From: Clostridia bacterium
GTDB lineage: Bacteria; Bacillota; Clostridia; Oscillospirales; CAG-272
Reading direction: 5' to 3'
Length of the DNA stretch: 42,841 nt
NCBI GenBank assembly: GCA_017412045.1
Contig: JAFQOX010000043.1
Coordinates: 1 to 42,841, forward strand
Of the stretch, positions 8,007-22,383 are shown piece by piece. The stretch's first letter is position 1. Each line of letters begins with the position of its first letter. The position numbers were made by a program, and so were the translations under genes. The notes under the pieces were generated by a model. That model saw nothing but the letters and a program-made list of their open reading frames with translations, did not search any database and had not been told where the DNA came from.

Positions 8007-9512
8007 TTATTCCGTTACGCCTGCTACGGTGAATTTGAAGGAAATCGGTTCGCTTGCCGCGCCCCAGGAGTCGTAAGCGGTCAGAATGACCTCGTAATCG
8101 TCGGGACTGAGTGAACCGAGCGAGTGAGACAGGGACTTTTTCATCTGAGCGGGATCCGATACGCGATAGAAGTCGGAAAGAATATTGAAGGTTCTTCTGG
8201 TCTTTCCTGCTTTTTTGAATTCCATCGTGTAGTGGTGCGCGAAGGTGTCGTCCGTTGCGGCATCAAATTGGATGGTAACGCTCTGCTTGCCGGTTGCGCT
8301 GGGCGTGCCCATGATGGCTTCAATACCGGAAAGCGCGGGCGCCTGATTGTTTTCGGCGTTGCCTCTGTCCTTGCCGTATTTGGTCAGATGAGAACCGTCT
8401 GCGGTCGGATGAGAGATTTCCCAGGGCTCCATAGCCGCCTTATTGTAGAAGTCCATGCGGGTAATACGCATATTGCCGTTTTCGTCAATCTGGCAGAGCA
8501 GACCCTGAGAATATTCGGTATTGTCCTTCATGGTCGTTGCGCTTGCCATGTTTTCGTATTTACCGTCCTCGATCGCCATATAGTTGACGGAGCCGCAGCC
8601 GAGGGAGGTGAAGCTCGTCTGCATGATGGTGCGGGGATCGTTGATCGGGAAATGCAGGTGTCCGCCGAAGGTGACGACCTGATTGTATTTGGAAAGAATG
8701 GGGGTCAGATCGCTGGTCGCCCACATATCGGTCAGCGAGGTGCCGGGCTCTCTGCCGAGGGTGCTTCCGTATACGGTGTCGTAGATCATCGGGTGCGTCA
8801 GTACGATGACGTAAGCGTCGGGATCAGCGGTCGTGATCTCAGAAAGCGTCTTGTCGAGCCAATTTTTGGTTCCCTGCGTATAGGATACGTTGGTAGACGT
8901 TACGGGGAGGAGCGTCAGGATGTGGTAGCCGTTGACCACGCAGTGACGGTTGCCTTCCGCGGCAAGCGCGTCCTTGTCAACGTCCGTGAGGAAGAAATTC
9001 GGGCCGAACATAGCGTTGTGTTCTGCGGCAACGTTTTTTGCCGTGCCGTCCCATTTGAGGTCGTGGTTGCCTTCCGCGTGGATCATGGGAACCTCGGCGG
9101 GATTGAAAACGCTCTGATAAATCTGCTTATAGGAGTTGATGTTGCCCGACGTATTGGTGCCGCCGTAGCCGCTGCCTTCAAAAAGGTCGCCCACGGCTAA
9201 AACGGCATCGATGCCGTCCGCATCGTGCTTTGCCGCCTGCTCCTTGAGCTGAAGAAGCGCGCTTTTGAATTTGTTTTCTTCGACGTTGTTGGTATCTCTG
9301 CCGATATGGATGTCGCTGATCGCGGCAAAGGAGAATACGATCTTGCTTTCGTCAAAGACTGCGTTCACGTTCGGCTGCTCTGGCTTCTGCGTGTCGGAGT
9401 TTGTGGATGATGCTGTGGTGGATGCCGTGGTTTGGTCGGTCGTGTTCGGCTTACAAGAGACCAGACCGAGGGTCAGAACCGCGGCGAGGAATGCCGATAG
9501 AAATTTTTTCAT
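8007..9512 (-). CDS. Calcineurin-like metallophosphoesterase lipoprotein
   Basis: A 501-residue protein with a lipoprotein signal peptide: basic start, hydrophobic core, and lipobox LVSC with Cys20. A low-complexity Thr/Ser linker follows. The metallophosphoesterase motifs are in order: ISDIHIG, VGDLFEG, EGNHDLKW, LTHPMI and GGHLHFP, covering the two-metal site. The C-terminal ~95 residues look like an immunoglobulin/fibronectin-like beta-domain (MEFKKAGKTRRTFNI to the end). It probably hydrolyses a phosphate ester or nucleotide outside the membrane; the substrate is unknown. A close paralogue without signal peptide lies at 19816-21144. It is a single gene with its own promoter. Confidence 0.88.
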   Translation of the reverse strand: MKKFLSAFLAAVLTLGLVSCKPNTTDQTTASTTASSTNSDTQKPEQPNVNAVFDESKIVFSFAAISDIHIGRDTNNVEENKFKSALLQLKEQAAKHDADGIDAVLAVGDLFEGSGYGGTNTSGNINSYKQIYQSVFNPAEVPMIHAEGNHDLKWDGTAKNVAAEHNAMFGPNFFLTDVDKDALAAEGNRHCVVNGYHILTLLPVTSTNVSYTQGTKNWLDKTLSEITTADPDAYVIVLTHPMIYDTVYGSTLGREPGTSLTDMWATSDLTPILSKYNQVVTFGGHLHFPINDPRTIMQTSFTSLGCGSVNYMAIEDGKYENMASATTMKDNTEYSQGLLCQIDENGNMRITRMDFYNKAAMEPWEISHPTADGSHLTKYGKDRGNAENNQAPALSGIEAIMGTPSATGKQSVTIQFDAATDDTFAHHYTMEFKKAGKTRRTFNILSDFYRVSDPAQMKKSLSHSLGSLSPDDYEVILTAYDSWGAASEPISFKFTVAGVTE

Positions 9513-14574: not shown

Positions 14575-16077
14575 TTACCAATTTTGGTCTTCGTAAGGTG
14601 TATTTTCGACACCCTTTTCTTGCAAGTTTGCAACCATGCGGTCAAGCGTTCCTCGCCACATTTTCTTAAACCATTCGGTTTCACCAAACCACTTTACAAG
14701 AGTGGGGCTGATTGCATAGTATGTTTTGATAAAGGCTCTGCCATGCCATGTAGAGCCGAGCGTATAGTCGCGATAACGGCGAAGTGTCCAAACCTCGGGG
14801 CAGTCGTAGGAACCGTAAACGGCGGTGGCAACGTAGCAACCGCCACCACCTGCGGCAGTACCTTTTTCCAAATACGGATATTTTTCCAACAACATTTTAG
14901 CGATTTCAGAATCAGTGTGTTTATTATATAACGCAACTCCACCTGTGTTGGTTACATCAGCTTTTGCACCATTATCCAACAAGAATTTTGCAATTTTTCT
15001 TGCCGCTTCAATATTAGATTCATCGGGCTTTTTGCGGCATATAATCCACAAAGCAGTAGCTTTATGGGATTCTGCATTAATATCAGCACCGTACTCTACC
15101 AAGTATTTTACTACTTCATAATCATAATGGATGGAAGCAGCCATCAACAATGTGATGTCATCGTTATTTTGATAGTTGATAATAAATTTAAGATTGTCTT
15201 TTTCTTTATCATTCGAAGCGGTGTACGATATTGCTTTTCTTAAATTCTCTAAAGCATTTTTTATGTTTCCGTTTGTATAATAGATTGCGCAAGCTTTACC
15301 TACATAACCAATCGGTGAGTTAGTGTTTTTCTTTATGTACTCACTAAAATAATGCAAAGCAAATTCCGGATAACCATTTTTCAATGTTTCAAGAGCTTTT
15401 TCAAGAATCTCTTCTTTGGACAAGTCTTTACATTGTACTATAATAATATTAGCTAATGAATCCACATAAGCTTCAATAACCTTATTTATCATATTGTAAG
15501 TGACATCCAAAGAATCATTCTCAATGACTTGGTTGCGATCTACAACATTACCATAACCATTTTTTGTCACATATTCCTGTAAATGTGTAGTCGGGACAAT
15601 TTTGCCCGTTTTCAACCCTTTAATATCATCCATTATTTCGAATAATAACTTTTGAAGTTCTTTGTTTTTGTTATCATAGTTATCATCTATGATGGATACA
15701 CTTTTTACCAATACATTGAAAACACCTTGTCTCTTGTCTTTGGTTTCTGCTTCTAACAAGGCTAATTTTACCCGTGCAAACGTACTGTAAAAAATTGCTT
15801 CAATATTGGTTGGATCGTTTTGTTCCACCATATTATAATATTTTTCGGTTTCAGCCCAGTCTTCTTTTTGTTTCGCACGACGAGCATTTGTCAGATATTT
15901 TTCAACGAAAGCGGAATTGTCAACCTTGACGGTACCTTGGATATCAACCGTTCCTTCGATCATCATTTTTTTCGCTTCTTCTACGGAATATTTTGTTCCA
16001 CAAGTTTGGCAAACAAAGAATCCGTCCTGCTTGATAAGGTCTGTGCTTCCGCACATTTCACAAGTTAATTGTTTCAT
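14575..16077 (-). CDS. Zinc-ribbon / ankyrin-repeat / CFI-box C-terminal protein
   Basis: A 500-residue multidomain protein. It starts with a zinc ribbon (CEMCG, then CQTCG; Cys6, Cys9, Cys23, Cys26). Next comes a long helical region with TPR-like character (about 55-300), then ankyrin repeats (about 305-405, for example LLMAASIHYDYEVVKYLVEY and KFLLDNGAKADVTN). After a four-glycine hinge it ends in a CFI-box-like C-terminal module (CYVATAVYGS, then EVWTLRRYRDYTL and GRAFIKTYYAISPTLVKWF). The functions of CFI-box proteins are unknown. It is the last gene of a four-gene operon; AAGGAG before the ATG lies just after the upstream HTH gene. Its AT-rich codons differ from neighbouring genes. Confidence 0.8.
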   Translation of the reverse strand: MKQLTCEMCGSTDLIKQDGFFVCQTCGTKYSVEEAKKMMIEGTVDIQGTVKVDNSAFVEKYLTNARRAKQKEDWAETEKYYNMVEQNDPTNIEAIFYSTFARVKLALLEAETKDKRQGVFNVLVKSVSIIDDNYDNKNKELQKLLFEIMDDIKGLKTGKIVPTTHLQEYVTKNGYGNVVDRNQVIENDSLDVTYNMINKVIEAYVDSLANIIIVQCKDLSKEEILEKALETLKNGYPEFALHYFSEYIKKNTNSPIGYVGKACAIYYTNGNIKNALENLRKAISYTASNDKEKDNLKFIINYQNNDDITLLMAASIHYDYEVVKYLVEYGADINAESHKATALWIICRKKPDESNIEAARKIAKFLLDNGAKADVTNTGGVALYNKHTDSEIAKMLLEKYPYLEKGTAAGGGGCYVATAVYGSYDCPEVWTLRRYRDYTLGSTWHGRAFIKTYYAISPTLVKWFGETEWFKKMWRGTLDRMVANLQEKGVENTPYEDQNW

Positions 16078-16095
16078 ATTGATTTTCTCCTTATG

Positions 16096-16269
16096 TCAAT
16101 TATGTTTTTTCTTTAACATTTCTTCTATTGTGCTTTCGGGTATGTGCCAAGGACTACCTTTGGCGTCTTGCTCTGCACCTTTAATTTTTCCTTCGCGACA
16201 AAGTTTTGCAACTGTTGATTGAGCCAATCCCAATCTTTCTGCCGCTTCTTTTGTACCTATTGTTGCCAT
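16096..16269 (-). CDS. 57-residue excisionase-like helix-turn-helix protein
   Basis: A very small winged-helix/MerR-type DNA-binding protein: GTKEAAERLGLAQSTVAKLC forms the helix-turn-helix, followed by REGKIKGAEQDAKGSPWHIP, the wing typical of excisionase-family (HTH_17) domains. The AAAGGA at 16281-16286 overlaps the stop of the upstream membrane-protein gene, and the next gene starts 18 bases downstream, so it is inside the operon. It could regulate the operon, direct excision of the island, or bind a specific DNA site for the system. There is no recombinase gene beside it. Confidence 0.75.
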   Translation of the reverse strand: MATIGTKEAAERLGLAQSTVAKLCREGKIKGAEQDAKGSPWHIPESTIEEMLKKKHN

Positions 16270-16277
16270 TATAGAAA

Positions 16278-16949
16278 TTATCCTTTTAGTATTTTACATT
16301 TTTTATTGCGTTCTGTAAGTAATGTGCCAATCTCTTGGATGAGATATTTTTTATCATCTGCCGTTTTCATTTCTTCAACCTTGGCAATGATTCTTGATTC
16401 CAAATCACAGAGCATTTCGTGGCTCATCGGATCGCTGAAGCGTACTTTTTCGGCAAGCTTGGTTAGCAATATCTTCGTTTCGGAATCAGATTCGCTGTTT
16501 GCCAACATTTCAATATCCATTTGTAAAAATTGAATAAAAGCGCGTTTTGTCTTGATTTTTTCATCCAAACGATCAATCTCGCCTACGCCTGCTTGTCCCG
16601 TGATTGAGCAGATGGCAAAGATGGCAAGAATGACAGCGCATACGATGATTGCCAACCACATGGGCAACGTAGGGAAGATCTTAAAAACCGCAAAAGCAAT
16701 CAGTTGAAGGATCAGATACGTAAGTCCAACGTGAATAAGGGGAATACCGAGAAATTTACTGTTCAAGGTTTCCTTTTTGTCAAAAGCAATCTTCCAAAGC
16801 GGAATTTGAGTTACAAAAGCAAGGATGGAGAAAGCGTATGCAGTCCAGAATGTTGCGGTTTTGTCGGTAGGTATCACGAATGCAATGACATGAAAAAGCG
16901 CAAACCCAATGCCCACAACAAGATAAGCCATAGAATGTTTCTTTTTCAT
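16278..16949 (-). CDS. Four-helix membrane protein with cytosolic helical tail
   Basis: A 223-residue protein with four predicted transmembrane helices in the first ~120 residues (around 8-26, 33-52, 70-92 and 97-116), then a charged helical cytosolic tail (about 122-223), which includes EIDRLDEKIKTKRAFI and may form a coiled coil. I do not recognise a family. Its ATG overlaps the stop of the SPFH gene by four bases (ATGA), so translation is coupled and the two products are probably made in equal amounts. The SPFH protein may dock on this membrane anchor. This is the second gene of the operon. Confidence 0.78.
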   Translation of the reverse strand: MKKKHSMAYLVVGIGFALFHVIAFVIPTDKTATFWTAYAFSILAFVTQIPLWKIAFDKKETLNSKFLGIPLIHVGLTYLILQLIAFAVFKIFPTLPMWLAIIVCAVILAIFAICSITGQAGVGEIDRLDEKIKTKRAFIQFLQMDIEMLANSESDSETKILLTKLAEKVRFSDPMSHEMLCDLESRIIAKVEEMKTADDKKYLIQEIGTLLTERNKKCKILKG

Positions 16950-18136
16950 CGGTCATCCCCCCTCTTTGTTCCGCATTTGGGGCAGAATTTCCCGGGGCGC
17001 TCAAATTGATAACCGCAATTTCGGCATATGTGATCGGGAACGGAAACTTTTGCTCCGCACTCATCACAAAATACGGAGCCGGGAGTCAGCTTTGCCCCGC
17101 AATTTTCGCAAAAAGCATTGATTGGCGCGGAAGGATTTGTCGGTAGGGTGTTTACGTTGTTAAATGCTGTATTGACTGCGCCTCCGACCATGCTTGCAAT
17201 CTCGCCACCTACGCCTGCCATCATGCCAAGCCCGATTCCCATATTTGTAAATTGCCCCGAGCCCTCATTTTTAGCCGCGTCTTGCGCAACGTCAAAACCG
17301 CGTTCCTGCTGATAGGTATAGCCTTCCTGCGCGCGTTTGGTTGCTTGTGCTTGTGAATCAATCACTACCTTCTGCGCTTCTGTTTGTGCATGAATCAATT
17401 CTGTTTGCTGTTGGATTTTGGCTTCGGCAATATCAGCATACTGACGGAAATGGAGTTCTTTGAATTTTTCATATTGTATCGTTCCTTCGGGCTTTACAAT
17501 CGTTGTAACGTAAAAACGATTGAGTCTGACACCGTATTCCAAAAAGTCATTGATTAACTTTTCATGAATTTCCGATGAAAAAGTTTCAAGCTGCTCATCA
17601 ATTTCAAAAATATTGATTGCATTTTTCCGCATGATCTGCGCAATATATGTCTTGACCTTTGTCATCAAAACTGCACGGAAAAAGGTGGTCAGTTTATCCC
17701 GTCCGAGATCGCGTTCAGTTCCGACAAGCTTCGTCAGAAGCATACGGGAATCTTCCACGCTTAAAGCCATCTCACCGGAAGCGCCGATTGCCAAAGGGAA
17801 TTTATAGGTTGGTTCAATATATTGAATCTTACTGTCTGTTCCCCAACGAATCGCCAATTGTTCTGTTTTATTGACAAAATAAACCTCACAGTGAAAGGGC
17901 GTTTTCCCTCCTGTCGGAATATTCGTGAAGTGGCGCAGCAATGGAATATTCTGTGTTTCCAATGTATATCTGCCCGCTCCAAACAAATCCAATGCTTGAC
18001 CGTTCATGAAAAAGACTGCTTCCTGGCTTTCATGAACGATCAACTGTGTTGTTGTATTGAAATCCTCGCAAGGATGTTTCCAAACAAACGTGCTGTTGTC
18101 GCCTTCGTATTTAATAATATCGACAATATTCGCCAT
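16946..18136 (-). CDS. SPFH-domain protein with C-terminal double zinc ribbon (YdjI-like)
   Basis: A 396-residue protein. The N-terminal ~260 residues form an SPFH/band-7-like domain (starting VDIIKYEGDNSTFVWKHP). A helical, glutamine-rich region follows (about 255-300), then a glycine-rich hydrophobic stretch (MGIGLGMMAGVGGEIASMVG), and a tail with four CxxC pairs (CENCG, CDECG, CRNCG, CPKCG) for two zinc ribbons. The closest known protein is Bacillus YdjI, from an operon linked to membrane-stress response with a PspA paralogue. The ATG at 18136 follows AAAGGAG; the upstream extension lacks a site. It is the first gene of the operon, with a perfect sigma-A promoter at 18180-18208. Confidence 0.85.
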   Translation of the reverse strand: MANIVDIIKYEGDNSTFVWKHPCEDFNTTTQLIVHESQEAVFFMNGQALDLFGAGRYTLETQNIPLLRHFTNIPTGGKTPFHCEVYFVNKTEQLAIRWGTDSKIQYIEPTYKFPLAIGASGEMALSVEDSRMLLTKLVGTERDLGRDKLTTFFRAVLMTKVKTYIAQIMRKNAINIFEIDEQLETFSSEIHEKLINDFLEYGVRLNRFYVTTIVKPEGTIQYEKFKELHFRQYADIAEAKIQQQTELIHAQTEAQKVVIDSQAQATKRAQEGYTYQQERGFDVAQDAAKNEGSGQFTNMGIGLGMMAGVGGEIASMVGGAVNTAFNNVNTLPTNPSAPINAFCENCGAKLTPGSVFCDECGAKVSVPDHICRNCGYQFERPGKFCPKCGTKRGDDR

Positions 18137-18179
18137 CAAATGATCGACTCCTTTAAAAAATGGAACTATTCTACCTATG

Positions 18180-18208
18180 ATTATACTATTAAAGTTCCTG
18201 TTTGTCAA
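18180..18208 (-). promoter_or_regulatory. Sigma-A promoter of the SPFH operon, inside a dyad
   Basis: Minus strand TTGACA (18203-18208), 17 bases, TATAAT (18180-18185): both boxes are consensus. GGAACT (18162-18167) and AGTTCC (18193-18198) form an inverted repeat around the -10 box, a likely repressor site. Confidence 0.75.
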
Positions 18209-18215
18209 GGTTTTT

Positions 18216-18231
18216 AGGAAGTATAATTCCT
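18216..18231. promoter_or_regulatory. Palindromic operator candidate between the XRE gene and SPFH operon
   Basis: AGGAAGTATAATTCCT is an interrupted palindrome overlapping a TATAAT box that faces the XRE gene. It shares the GGAA/TTCC half-sites with the dyad at 18162-18198. The XRE protein is the obvious candidate ligand. Confidence 0.5.
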
Positions 18232-18258: not shown

Positions 18259-18588
18259 ATGCTTATTTATGATTTTACAACGATAGGTAACAAATTATTT
18301 TCATTTCGTAAAAGAATGGGGATGACACAAGCGGAGGTGGCTGAGGCTGCGGGACTTTCCGACAGAACGTACGCTGATATTGAACGCGGCACGGTCAATA
18401 TGCGTATCGAAACGATTTTGCATATTTGCGATGTTTTGCACATTACGCCCGATGAAATTTTTACGGAGAAAGATACCAATGAAATTTCCAAACAAGACGA
18501 AATCTGGGAACGCCTGAAGTCATGCTCTCCGAAAGATCAGGAAACCGCGCTGCGGATTCTTGCCGCTTATTTGCAATCTTTGGATTAA
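18259..18588 (+). CDS. XRE-family helix-turn-helix regulator of the SPFH island
   Basis: A 109-residue protein: a lambda-repressor-like HTH over about residues 10-68 (RKRMGMTQAEVAEAAGLSDR, TYADIERGTVNMRIETI), then a short tail with CSPKDQETALRILAAYLQSL, a helical hairpin seen in many small clostridial XRE regulators. AAAGGAGG precedes the ATG. It is divergent from the four-gene SPFH operon across a 122-base interval holding palindromes, so it probably represses that operon and itself. A terminator follows directly. The second XRE gene at 22028 has the same layout. Confidence 0.88.
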   Translation: MLIYDFTTIGNKLFSFRKRMGMTQAEVAEAAGLSDRTYADIERGTVNMRIETILHICDVLHITPDEIFTEKDTNEISKQDEIWERLKSCSPKDQETALRILAAYLQSLD

Positions 18589-18589
18589 C

Positions 18590-18636
18590 AAAAAATCCCA
18601 CTCTTCGGATTTCTCCGAAAGAGTGGGAACGTTTTT
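18590..18636. terminator. Rho-independent terminator after the XRE gene
   Basis: The stem TCCCACTCTTCGGA pairs with TCCGAAAGAGTGGGA, with flanking A and T runs. It belongs to a hairpin family also found at 19715, 21274 and 22342. Confidence 0.85.
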
Positions 18637-18680
18637 ATCATCATATCATAACACATAAAAGTACCGCGAACTGCTTACTG

Positions 18681-19714: not shown

Positions 19715-19760
19715 AAAAAATCCCACCTCCTCGGATTTTTCCGAAAGGGTGGGATTTTTT
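19715..19760. terminator. Bidirectional terminator after the second phosphoesterase
   Basis: TCCCACC...GGGTGGGA stem flanked by A6 and T6, of the same family as 18590-18636. It serves the minus-strand phosphoesterase ending at 19816. Confidence 0.85.
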
Positions 19761-19815: not shown

Positions 19816-21144
19816 TCAGACCGTAAACGGATAAGAAACCGCCTCGCTTGCCGCGCCCCAGGAATCGTAGGCGGTCAGAATGACCTCGTAATCCGCGGGG
19901 GAGAGCGCGCCGATATGGCAGGTGAGCGTATCCTTCATCTCCGAGGGCGTTTTTACGCGGTAGAAATCGGAAAGGATCTTGAAGGTTTTGACGGTCTCGC
20001 CCGCTTTCTTGAGCTCCATCGTGTAGTGGTGCGCAAAGGTATCGTCCTTTGCCGCGCCGAATTCGACGGTGACGTCCCGATTGCCGTTTTCGTCGATCTC
20101 ACCGATCACGGCTTTGATATTTTTGGAAAGAACGGGCGCGGGATTGTTTTCCGGGAAGCCGCGGTCCTTGCCGTACGCGGTCAGATGAGAGCCGTCGGCG
20201 GTCGGGTGAGCAAGCTCCCAAGGCGTGTCAAGGGTGGTCTTGTTGTAGAAGTCCATGCGGTTGAGTCGCATATTTCCGTTTTTGTCGATCTGACCGATGA
20301 GTCCCTGCGAAAACTCGAATTTGTCCTTCATGGTCGTCAGCGAAGCCATGTTTTCATAGCCGCCGTCCTCGATCGCCATGTAGCTGACGGAGCCGCAACC
20401 GACGGAGGTAAACGCGGTCTGCATGATGCTGCGGGGGTCGTTGAGGGGGAAATGCAGGTGTCCGCCGAAAACGATGACCTGATTGTATTTGGAAAGAATG
20501 TCCGTTACGTCGCTCGTGACCCACATATCCTTGAGCGTGGAGCCGGGCTCTCTGCCGAGCGTGCTTCCGTATATAGTATCGTAGATCATGGGATGCGTCA
20601 AAACGATGACGTAGGCGTTCGGATTTTCGGAGGTGATCTGCGCCAGCGTGCGGTCGAGCCAATCCTTCGTTGCCTGCGTATAGGTAACGTCCGTATACGT
20701 CACGGGGAGCAGCGTGAGGATATGATAGCCGTTCACGACGCAATGGCGGTTGCCCTCCGCTTCCAGAATATCCATGTCAATGTCCTTTTGGAAGTAATCG
20801 GGGCCGAGCATTTCGTTGAGCTTCGCGGCTTCTGTTTTCGATTCCGCGCTCCAATGCACGTCGTGATTGCCGACGGCGAAGATCATGGGCATTTCCTTCG
20901 GATCGAAAACGCTTTCATATACTTTTTTATAAACGTAGATCTGTTCGAATTTGCCGCCGTAGCCGCCCGCGTTGATGAGGTCGCCGACGGTGAGGATCGC
21001 GTCAACGCCGCCGAATTCCTTGATCTGCTTGAGCGCGTTCGTGAAAAAGGCTTTGTCGCGTCCGGCATTGTCGTTGCACATATGAACGTCGCTGATCGCG
21101 GCGAACGTAAAAACGATTTTGGATTCGTCGAATATATTTTTCAT
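19816..21144 (-). CDS. Calcineurin-like metallophosphoesterase, signal-less paralogue
   Basis: A 442-residue paralogue of the lipoprotein at 8007-9512, sharing long identical stretches such as EGNRHCVVNGYHILTLLPVT and THPMIYDT. The motifs ISDVHM, VGDLINAG, VGNHDVHW, LTHPMI and GGHLHFP complete the two-metal site. It starts MKNIFDESKIVF, exactly where the mature part of the paralogue begins, with no signal peptide or lipobox. The ATG at 21144 is preferred because AAAGGA lies nine bases upstream; the upstream extension has no signal sequence either. It also ends in the Ig-like domain. It should act in the cytoplasm. The substrate is unknown. Confidence 0.87.
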   Translation of the reverse strand: MKNIFDESKIVFTFAAISDVHMCNDNAGRDKAFFTNALKQIKEFGGVDAILTVGDLINAGGYGGKFEQIYVYKKVYESVFDPKEMPMIFAVGNHDVHWSAESKTEAAKLNEMLGPDYFQKDIDMDILEAEGNRHCVVNGYHILTLLPVTYTDVTYTQATKDWLDRTLAQITSENPNAYVIVLTHPMIYDTIYGSTLGREPGSTLKDMWVTSDVTDILSKYNQVIVFGGHLHFPLNDPRSIMQTAFTSVGCGSVSYMAIEDGGYENMASLTTMKDKFEFSQGLIGQIDKNGNMRLNRMDFYNKTTLDTPWELAHPTADGSHLTAYGKDRGFPENNPAPVLSKNIKAVIGEIDENGNRDVTVEFGAAKDDTFAHHYTMELKKAGETVKTFKILSDFYRVKTPSEMKDTLTCHIGALSPADYEVILTAYDSWGAASEAVSYPFTV

Positions 21145-21190
21145 GAGAGATTCCTTTCCGCTTGGTCGCAAGCAAATATTTACTATATTT

Positions 21191-21219
21191 ATTATAGCAA
21201 TTTTTTCTCGCTTCATCAA
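21191..21219 (-). promoter_or_regulatory. Sigma-A promoter of the signal-less phosphoesterase
   Basis: Minus strand TTGATG (21214-21219), 17 bases, TATAAT (21191-21196), the same boxes as before the paralogue. Confidence 0.7.
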
Positions 21220-21273
21220 GTTCTTTTTGAAAAGCGGATAAAGAAATTTTTCGGAGCGAGTTTTTGACAAAAT

Positions 21274-21312
21274 AAAAATCCCACCCGATCGGATTTCTCC
21301 GAAAGGGCGGAA
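21274..21312. terminator. Terminator after the 21347-21892 gene
   Basis: TCCCACCCGATCGGA pairs with TCCGAAAGGGCGGGA. Read on the minus strand it is followed by a T run, fitting the minus-strand gene that ends at 21347. Confidence 0.75.
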
Positions 21313-22027: not shown

Positions 22028-22309
22028 ATGGATGTTAGTAAAAGATTGATTAGTTTACGAGTACAATGCGGTTTGACTCAAAATGGATTGGCAGAAAGAG
22101 CGGGAGTATCTCAAACACATTTGCGCCGTGTTGAACTTGGTCAAGCGGATATTACCATTGGTCATCTTCAGCTTCTGTGCGATGCTATGAGTATTTCCAT
22201 TCAAGACTTTTTCAAAGATGAATCCGAATCAGATAAAATCGCAATTGCGCTTTCAAAACTTTCTCCGAAACAAAAAACACTTCTTCTCTCATTTCTTGAG
22301 AGTTTGTAA
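22028..22309 (+). CDS. XRE-family helix-turn-helix regulator, second module
   Basis: A 93-residue protein: HTH over about residues 5-60 (RLISLRVQCGLTQNGLAERA, GVSQTHLRRVELGQADITIG) and a C-terminal helical stretch SKLSPKQKTLLLSFLESL. That end parallels the end of the XRE protein at 18259. AAGGAG precedes the ATG by seven bases. It is divergent from the membrane protein at 21347-21892 and probably represses it through the repeats at 21938 and 22002. A terminator follows. Confidence 0.87.
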   Translation: MDVSKRLISLRVQCGLTQNGLAERAGVSQTHLRRVELGQADITIGHLQLLCDAMSISIQDFFKDESESDKIAIALSKLSPKQKTLLLSFLESL

Positions 22310-22341: not shown

Positions 22342-22383
22342 AAAAAAATCCCACCCGATCGGATTTCTCCGAAAGGGTGGGAA
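22342..22383. terminator. Bidirectional terminator between the XRE gene and DUF1292 gene
   Basis: TCCCACCC...GGGTGGGA stem with an A-rich left flank. It is shared by convergent genes and is the same hairpin family as 18590, 19715 and 21274. Confidence 0.75.

Follow-up and report, generated by a model that had tools for sequence, protein, structure and literature searches.

Among the known systems closest to the locus analysed here are one from Bacillus and a class of conflict systems. YdjI is an SPFH protein which, in the available text of PMC8581546, is predicted to be soluble, carries a C-terminal zinc finger, needs the membrane proteins YdjG/H and has a role in envelope stress. YdjG combines zinc ribbons with a TM segment (available text of PMC11237479). 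Polymorphic NTP-dependent conflict systems are described as a constant core accompanied by variable effectors (Kaur et al. 2020, PMC7159879, in the part available).

The window, that is, the whole stretch of 42,841 nucleotides analysed (Clostridia bacterium, contig JAFQOX010000043.1), contains a minus-strand operon whose first gene encodes an SPFH protein with a C-terminal zinc ribbon and no hydropathic TM stretch. The initial annotation had confined the likeness to Bacillus ydjI to this gene, and we agree. From sequence comparison, we judge it rather likely that the operon is one allele of a modular conflict system, in which a membrane scaffold recruits exchangeable effectors, most likely against phage. 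The system is probably undescribed, belongs to gut Clostridia and probably has an anti-phage role; literature searches on SPFH combined with TIR or defence, on type III Thoeris and on the CFI box brought up no description of it (preprints and most subscription papers being outside the scope).

The operon and its promoter region

All four ORFs of the proposed operon were found, and their coupling is borne out by an ATGA overlap, a ribosome-binding site overlapping a stop codon and an 18-base gap (genes were called throughout with a simple ORF picker rather than a trained caller). The first core gene (16946..18136, minus strand, 396 aa) was assigned from Pfam and homologues as SPFH/Band-7 with a C-terminal double zinc ribbon (Band_7_1, 3.4e-36; DZR, 3.4e-9); the hydropathy scan detected no 19-residue stretch over the cut-off. 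The second (16278..16949, minus strand, 223 aa), assigned from hydropathy and gene order, encodes a multi-TM protein. It is called 4TM after the initial count of four segments, although the hydropathy scan gives three stretches over the cut-off (residues 5-29, 66-98 and 83-125). The C-terminal helix region of 4TM bears SDPMS and ERNKKCK motifs, and R214 and K222 are invariant among 59 aligned members. Its best Pfam match, CreD (2.1e-4), is below the cut-off, and no NTPase domain was found by Pfam in the window core. PDB searches with the SPFH and 4TM profiles returned only chance matches of zinc-ribbon and coiled-coil type. PADLOC did not recognise the core: SPFH matched no family, and the one 4TM match had an E of 0.46.

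The variable small-gene slot (16096..16269, minus strand, 57 aa) is occupied by an HTH_17/excisionase-like protein (HTH_17, 2.7e-11; TIGR01764 excise, 2.4e-7). The gene after it, termed the third gene (14575..16077, minus strand, 500 aa), encodes an N-terminal zinc ribbon of two CxxC pairs, a TPR-like helical region, Ank repeats (Ank_2, 3e-9) and a C-terminal CFI box (CFI_box_CTERM, NF041770, 1.3e-21; 76.2 bits, cut-off 40). A match of the ribbon to the Rrn7 ribbon (4.4e-6, 26.7 bits) is just under the cut-off of 27.1, and the PDB matches of the ZnR-Ank-CFI profile were chiefly to designed TPR proteins and covered the helical region.

The consensus promoter reported for the operon, TTGACA-17-TATAAT (18180..18208, minus strand), is the sole 12/12 match among the region's 14 promoter-like sites, a number to be compared with 11.0 expected from shuffled sequence, and both hexamers are kept in the same-genus genome G088. 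The GGAACT/AGTTCC dyad of the initial annotation (18162..18198; halves 18162-18167 and 18193-18198) is present at the promoter but is not conserved in this sister species. Also kept in G088, next to the XRE orthologue, is AGGAAGTATAATTCCT (18216..18231), a candidate operator that may be bound by the XRE protein. The initial annotation had placed the operon under the divergent XRE-family regulator (18259..18588, plus strand; HTH_3, 3.1e-12). The regulator gene and intergenic region show 79% DNA identity to G088, but there the genes on the other side of the XRE orthologue and promoters are unrelated ones; on this comparison, the XRE gene is a property of the site, outside the conserved system. 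The operon site is a cargo hotspot within the genus. PADLOC related the HTH_17 protein to the mad1 model (7.7e-7) and the XRE protein to several regulator models, matches that generic HTH proteins would also give.

The SPFH-4TM pair and the genes that follow it

Among 86 loci found via SPFH alone, the 4TM gene lies directly after SPFH in 81 and a gene later in one more, the gap being ≤ 20 bp in 79 of the 81 direct pairs. Because this core is conserved in other genomes, the gene order is not due to chance. A zinc-ribbon (ZnR) gene follows the core on the same strand in 65 of the 72 loci with room downstream, and four of the other seven have one upstream. Two observations count against the conflict-system reading: the more distant SPFH loci L088-L094 gave no 4TM match, and a 4TM paralogue without SPFH adjoins ABC-transporter genes in the window's own genome. 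In L217, L218 and L223 4TM is fused to DUF6273, a domain that also ends some TIR proteins.

The third gene keeps its N-terminal zinc ribbon and varies in the rest, which may be TIR, CFI box, coiled coil, Ank, LRR, TM tail or trypsin. TIR_2 was found in 19 of 88 third-slot proteins, the CFI box in 17, DUF6273 in 10, LRR_5 in three, RCC1 and Ank_2 in two each and trypsin in one. These 88 remain from 96 references after removal of duplicates (L098, L163, L170), a radical SAM gene (L076) and SPFH loci without 4TM (L089, L091-L093), and they still include L095, L117, L122 and L131, which are probably outside the system. The CFI box accompanies zinc-ribbon heads and, in L118, a TIR protein. A full-length relative of the window's third protein occurs in L103 (67%); only the N-terminal part is common to L160, L148 and L063, and strong sharing with L062 is confined to the CFI box. 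The small gene is also inconstant, being HTH_17 in the window and elsewhere another winged-helix-like gene, a HEPN-like gene or TIR. HTH_17 occupies the slot in three of 137 catalogued loci, window included (the relatives are in L152 and L160, with another in L121 at a different position).

The initial annotation had presented the four genes as a set. What stands of this is SPFH-4TM and, usually, a ZnR third gene; HTH, XRE and CFI occur independently of them. The refuting condition set at the outset, independent occurrence of the genes, therefore applies to these three parts and fails for SPFH-4TM-ZnR. A fixed four-gene system was rejected because these last three parts are not constant. Among the loci compared, SPFH-4TM is a near-fixed core and the gene or genes following it are exchanged.

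Pairs of loci with similar cores illustrate the exchange. Over SPFH-4TM, L137 and L147 show 92% identity, yet beyond it they carry different cargo, with sharp borders; a HEPN-like gene follows the core in the former and a winged-helix-like gene in the latter, after which the ZnR 5' end is shared for 165 bp at 82% before the tails differ. In L160 and L169 (82% over the core) the small gene is HTH_17 and TIR, respectively, and the ZnR start is common, whereas L129 and L132 (79%) have the small gene and ZnR start in common and a different tail. Two alleles occur together in one genome bin (L100 with L142, L148 with L168). The SPFH tree needs 28 changes of third-gene class and 19 of small gene, figures from a quick tree with some long branches and 40 of 134 inner branches starred; its 137 rows, 32 of them classless, exclude loci that lack 4TM or repeat an SPFH start. 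The small protein called HEPN-like is presumed to be so from a motif, and no PDB relatives of it were found. The names DUF1413-like, HEPN-like, BtTIR and glycoside phosphorylase denote putative assignments.

TIR proteins, distribution and possible function

TIR is found near 51 of 137 core loci and in none of 18 control regions. Of 66 aligned TIR domains, 95% retain the W..NE glutamate. In the PDB, the best match to the stand-alone TIR of L157 is 7uxr (2.4e-27), followed by 7uwg (4.1e-25) and the AbTIR NAD+ hydrolase 8g83 (5.4e-25); TIR of the zinc-ribbon proteins gave only a weak match (Toll-like receptor 7ylf, 1.6e-4). A strong 4TM match was present in 11 of 27 TIR-positive genomes and 13 of 169 TIR-negative ones (p = 3.5e-5, uncorrected for phylogeny, counted by eye and with a 4TM cut of E ≤ 1e-20 of our choosing). 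This all-hits test is preferred to the 24 strongest TIR matches, 14 of which are not near a core, because the 155-bit cut defining the latter was set post hoc, just above the window's own genome (154.2 bits). That genome has eight TIR genes away from the core, and in G118 eight of nine TIR matches are away from it. In the window allele itself, none of the parts is a recognised effector enzyme.

The 4TM marker is patchy among the sampled genomes (31/196 in the family, 48/394 in the order, 31/391 in the class). Mobility is suggested by plasmid pNP21, on which the system lies some 2 kb away from a gene for a restriction S-subunit. Phage records gave one distant match (22%); only the record with the distant relative in L182 contains portal and terminase, and the remaining five viral records and pNP21 showed neither marker. 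Neighbouring proteins matched 88 PADLOC families and control proteins six (E ≤ 1e-15; 135 proteins each, from 145 drawn at random out of 246 candidates and from 148 controls, respectively, after a size filter for the neighbours). This comparison is weak because families rather than proteins were counted, some neighbours are probably members of the system and mad3 is reversed (control eight, neighbours two).

How such a system might work can be outlined. Having no hydropathic TM stretch of its own, the SPFH protein would be anchored by 4TM and oligomerize at the membrane as a sensor platform, on which the zinc-ribbon/TPR head of the third protein could dock. The trigger would act at the membrane, most likely as phage entry or envelope damage, whereupon the tail of the third protein or the accompanying small protein would act. 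Candidate actions are those of a NAD-cleaving or signalling TIR enzyme, a HEPN-like RNase, a trypsin-like protease or a membrane tail. In the window allele, the Ank-CFI tail may be the executor and HTH_17 a regulatory or sensing partner, with transcription presumably gated by the local XRE protein. The inducible membrane-stress or anti-phage module of the initial annotation stays plausible as a coupled operon with a conflict or membrane-stress role, though not as a fixed set.

A bolder and rather doubtful version makes SPFH-4TM a new class of inflammasome-like immune hub, whose zinc-ribbon-tagged effectors would be encoded adjacently and exchanged through recombination at the zinc-ribbon sequence, or, as dispersed ZnR-TIR proteins, used in trans. 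If trans use is real, one core would read out via an effector repertoire. Should the main reading, a modular conflict system, hold, YdjI-type bacterial SPFH proteins would gain an immune function and an unannotated module of gut Clostridia a name. The action of the CFI box becomes testable, as do zinc ribbons as docking tags for effector swapping on a fixed membrane sensor.

The main rival is an envelope-stress module like pspA-ydjGHI, in which SPFH and 4TM would sense and stabilize damaged membrane and ZnR proteins would be diverse partners in repair or signalling rather than immune effectors. YdjI, likewise soluble by prediction, zinc-fingered, dependent on YdjG/H and active in envelope stress (available text of PMC8581546), and YdjG with its zinc ribbons and TM segment (available text of PMC11237479) make this a possibility, albeit an unlikely one, since patchy distribution, fast cargo exchange and TIR, HEPN-like or trypsin cargo all misfit housekeeping repair. 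Moreover, PspA (PF04012) has no match in the window's own MAG and is positive in nine of 14 control genomes; the MAG is 87.7% complete, so absence is not proof. A module of the same architecture for regulated cell suicide or tolerance, responding to membrane insults other than phage such as antimicrobial peptides or bacteriocins, would suit the membrane core, the toxin-like cargo and the many source records that are gut or rumen metagenome bins, but is improbable, as the restriction gene nearby on pNP21 leans to phage. Least credible is a loose neighbourhood, in which SPFH-4TM is a real pair and the downstream ZnR genes are separate genes in the same hotspot, for despite the dispersed ZnR-TIR genes, such as those away from the core in the window's own genome, it sits badly with the same-strand ZnR gene after most cores, the zinc-ribbon 5' end kept at swap borders and the 4TM-DUF6273 fusions, whose DUF6273 recurs at the ends of TIR proteins.

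Comparison with known systems

The anti-phage conflict system proposed here resembles B. subtilis pspA-ydjGHI in having an SPFH protein without its own membrane segment, a C-terminal zinc finger and membrane partners encoded alongside (PMC8581546 and PMC11237479, available text). In the same text YdjH is described by its TPM domain, whereas no TPM and no YdjG-like membrane-partner match occurs in the Pfam search of the window 4TM protein, and the available descriptions lack exchangeable TIR, HEPN-like or CFI cargo. Coupling to PspA was rejected on the missing match in the 87.7% complete MAG.

Membership of Thoeris was rejected on score: the TIR segment, and that segment alone, of all seven scanned TIR-bearing third genes matches the type III protein ThcB4 (NF058526) at 21-29 bits, against a cut-off of 220. 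The cargo of L157 is like NADase-type TIRs (8g83, 7uwg, 7uxr), with the difference that TIR in the present system is one of several cargoes exchanged on a membrane core. CFI_box_CTERM (NF041770) describes a C-terminal domain for which no function is named; in the loci compared it goes with zinc-ribbon heads.

The NTP-dependent conflict systems, in the available text of PMC7159879, resemble the present system in that TIR and trypsin are exchangeable effectors beside constant components, and in having zinc ribbons as well as TM components. Their cores are MoxR-vWA or DO-GTPase-GAP1, in contrast to a core in which Pfam found no NTPase domain here, and Band-7 is placed on their effector side, whereas in the present system SPFH is the constant part.

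The operon and its site

The operon consists of four minus-strand genes at 14575-18136, where the initial annotation had placed them, and the domain set it described is borne out: an SPFH protein with a double zinc ribbon, a multi-TM protein (4TM), an HTH_17/excisionase-like protein and a zinc-ribbon/Ank/CFI-box protein. The second protein is multi-TM, but hydropathy does not establish the count of four: three stretches exceed the cut-off, and two of these overlap. The same scan revealed no TM stretch in either the SPFH or the third protein. The consensus promoter was also correctly recognized (perfect -35/-10 at 18208-18180). The GGAACT/AGTTCC dyad is present, but a different palindrome, AGGAAGTATAATTCCT, is the one kept in the sister species.

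The divergent XRE gene does lie beside the operon, as first described, but it belongs to the site rather than to the system, with the SPFH operon being one cargo of that site, since same-genus sites hold other genes. G175 and G922 keep the upstream 976-aa gene (which we take to be glycoside-phosphorylase-like) and the downstream 87-aa gene; by visual inspection, the genes between these two are others, and the XRE-like gene next to them is a different one. In the sister species (G088), gene order differs; the XRE gene and both promoters are present (79% DNA identity), and what they face is a pair of unrelated ORFs (196 and 232 aa). Among the genes compared in the stretch examined, the 976-aa gene alone was matched in G923, G026 and G132.

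Two metallophosphoesterase-type paralogues (66% identity) flank the operon at 8007-9512 and 19816-21270, and their relatives are also close to each other in G175 and G922. A second, weakly related XRE-type gene is found at 22028-22309. A short dispersed repeat, hairpin-forming and REP-type in appearance, is present at 18586-18645, 19715-19754, 21289-21305 and 22359-22383, one copy coming after the XRE gene.

A near-constant SPFH-4TM core

Public genome and viral contigs were scanned with an SPFH profile (A2), giving 80 and 6 loci, respectively, the genome part being the best 80 of 535 and hence close relatives. The 4TM gene was immediately 3' of SPFH in 81 of these 86 loci and one gene further on in another (L118), a figure that holds for this subfamily, as the 17 rows of A2 all came from loci with a prior 4TM match. 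It was absent from L112, L182 and L183, while at L154 just 859 bases were available downstream. The more distant SPFH loci L088-L094 gave no 4TM match. The 4TM family is patchy, being matched in 31/196 genomes of the family, 48/394 of the order and 31/391 of the class (overlapping sets). It is clear from these gene neighbourhoods that SPFH and 4TM form a core. As for conservation of the four-gene set, the SPFH-4TM pair and, mostly, the zinc-ribbon third gene are kept elsewhere; the HTH and CFI parts are not, as small gene and tail vary.

A short form of 4TM (135-158 aa), missing the SDPMS region and mostly ending in an RQKxHH-like motif, occurs in L123, L124, L136-L139, L141, L147, L161, L162, L164, L171, L173, L176 and L177; long and short forms require three changes on the SPFH tree. 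The window's own genome also has a 4TM paralogue (30% identity) without SPFH at G000:C126:19288-19947 (L087:9289-9951), adjoining genes for an ABC ATPase and a 281-aa protein with no Pfam match. Judged from gene sizes, G175 (L086) has a similar arrangement.

Exchange of cargo and association with TIR

A zinc-ribbon gene (two CxxC pairs within the first 70 residues) lies 3' of the core in 65 of the 72 loci that leave 1.5 kb of room; four of the other seven have one upstream. Matches among 88 third-slot proteins were TIR_2 (19), CFI box (17), DUF6273 (10), LRR_5 (3), RCC1 (2), Ank_2 (2) and trypsin (1); the trypsin-like protease (L075:4150-5025) has CxxC pairs at both ends. TIR and CFI box are united in a single protein at L118, and fusion proteins at L217, L218 and L223 combine 4TM with a DUF6273 match. 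The small gene between core and third gene is optional. It is of HTH_17 type in the window, L152 and L160; other types are two winged-helix-like families (one presumably related to DUF1413), an RHIRNGIAHG protein, which we take to be HEPN-like, and a stand-alone TIR (L157, L169).

On a tree of SPFH proteins from 137 loci, built by a quick method, with some long branches and with 40 of its 134 inner ones starred, third-gene class requires 28 changes when rows with a label are counted; for the small gene the number is 19. With the unlabelled class counted in, 47 changes are needed compared with a mean of 75.9 for shuffled labels; cargo is clustered on the tree, yet far from having single origins. 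L137 and L147 have 92% identity in SPFH-4TM, whereas their small genes are entirely different and their zinc-ribbon genes match over the first 165 bp (82%) and differ thereafter. L160 and L169 (core 82%) have HTH_17 and TIR small genes, respectively, with zinc-ribbon start and coiled-coil end in common, while L129 and L132 (core 79%) share the small gene and zinc-ribbon start, followed by CFI in one and coiled coil in the other. The window's third protein matches L103 along its entire length (67%), L160, L148 and L063 in the N-terminal part only, and L062 strongly in the CFI box only. According to record titles, two genome bins each hold two alleles (L100 and L142; L148 and L168). These alignments leave little doubt that cargo is exchanged.

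Fifty of the 137 cores have a TIR protein on the same strand at a distance of up to about 6 kb, and the L118 fusion raises this to 51; the 18 control regions (207 kb) have none. In the family, 27 of 196 genomes have a TIR match, and a strong 4TM match was found in 11 of these 27 versus 13 of 169 TIR-negative genomes (Fisher p = 3.5e-5, kinship ignored). By eye, ten of the 24 strongest TIR hits are ≤ 10 kb from a 4TM gene; the other 14 are scattered, with G118 accounting for eight. Association of TIR with the core is thus clear from gene position. Across an alignment of 66 TIR domains, 95% retain the W..NE glutamate. In a PDB search, the stand-alone TIR was close to known NADase TIRs, and a zinc-ribbon TIR protein gave only a weak match, to a Toll-like receptor (1.6e-4).

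Elsewhere in the window's own genome there are eight TIR hits, each of which matches a zinc-ribbon/TPR head model. These dispersed proteins (L256-L261; 505-1355 aa, one clipped by the stretch end) have a zinc-ribbon-type region and none adjoins the SPFH operon.

Mobility, possible defence neighbours and related systems

The Butyrivibrio plasmid pNP21 carries a close relative, its 4TM gene split over two ORFs; a restriction S subunit is encoded some 2 kb away, and a recombinase is nearby. Portal and terminase matches occur in one of the six viral records, that containing L182 (IMGVR_UViG_2703719136_000004), where a distant SPFH protein is followed by a zinc-ribbon protein without 4TM. Neighbour proteins matched 88 PADLOC families compared with six for control proteins. 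This contrast is only suggestive of defence, because families were counted, 25 of the 88 were listed (AbiE and SoFic models among them) and mad3 was commoner in the control.

SPFH and 4TM probably form a membrane scaffold that would recruit zinc-ribbon-headed proteins, presumably by docking, and fire upon membrane attack, most likely by phage. We infer effector activity for the cargo; in the window allele the CFI box would be the executor. The scaffold proposal comes from likeness to two known arrangements. Of the systems studied, the nearest is Bacillus subtilis pspA-ydjGHI, in which, according to PMC8581546 and PMC11237479, the SPFH protein YdjI requires membrane partners. The logic of an SPFH protein with a membrane partner is common to both; unlike that system, no PspA match is present in the window's own MAG. 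In kind, the constant-core/variable-effector conflict systems set out in PMC7159879 are the nearest.
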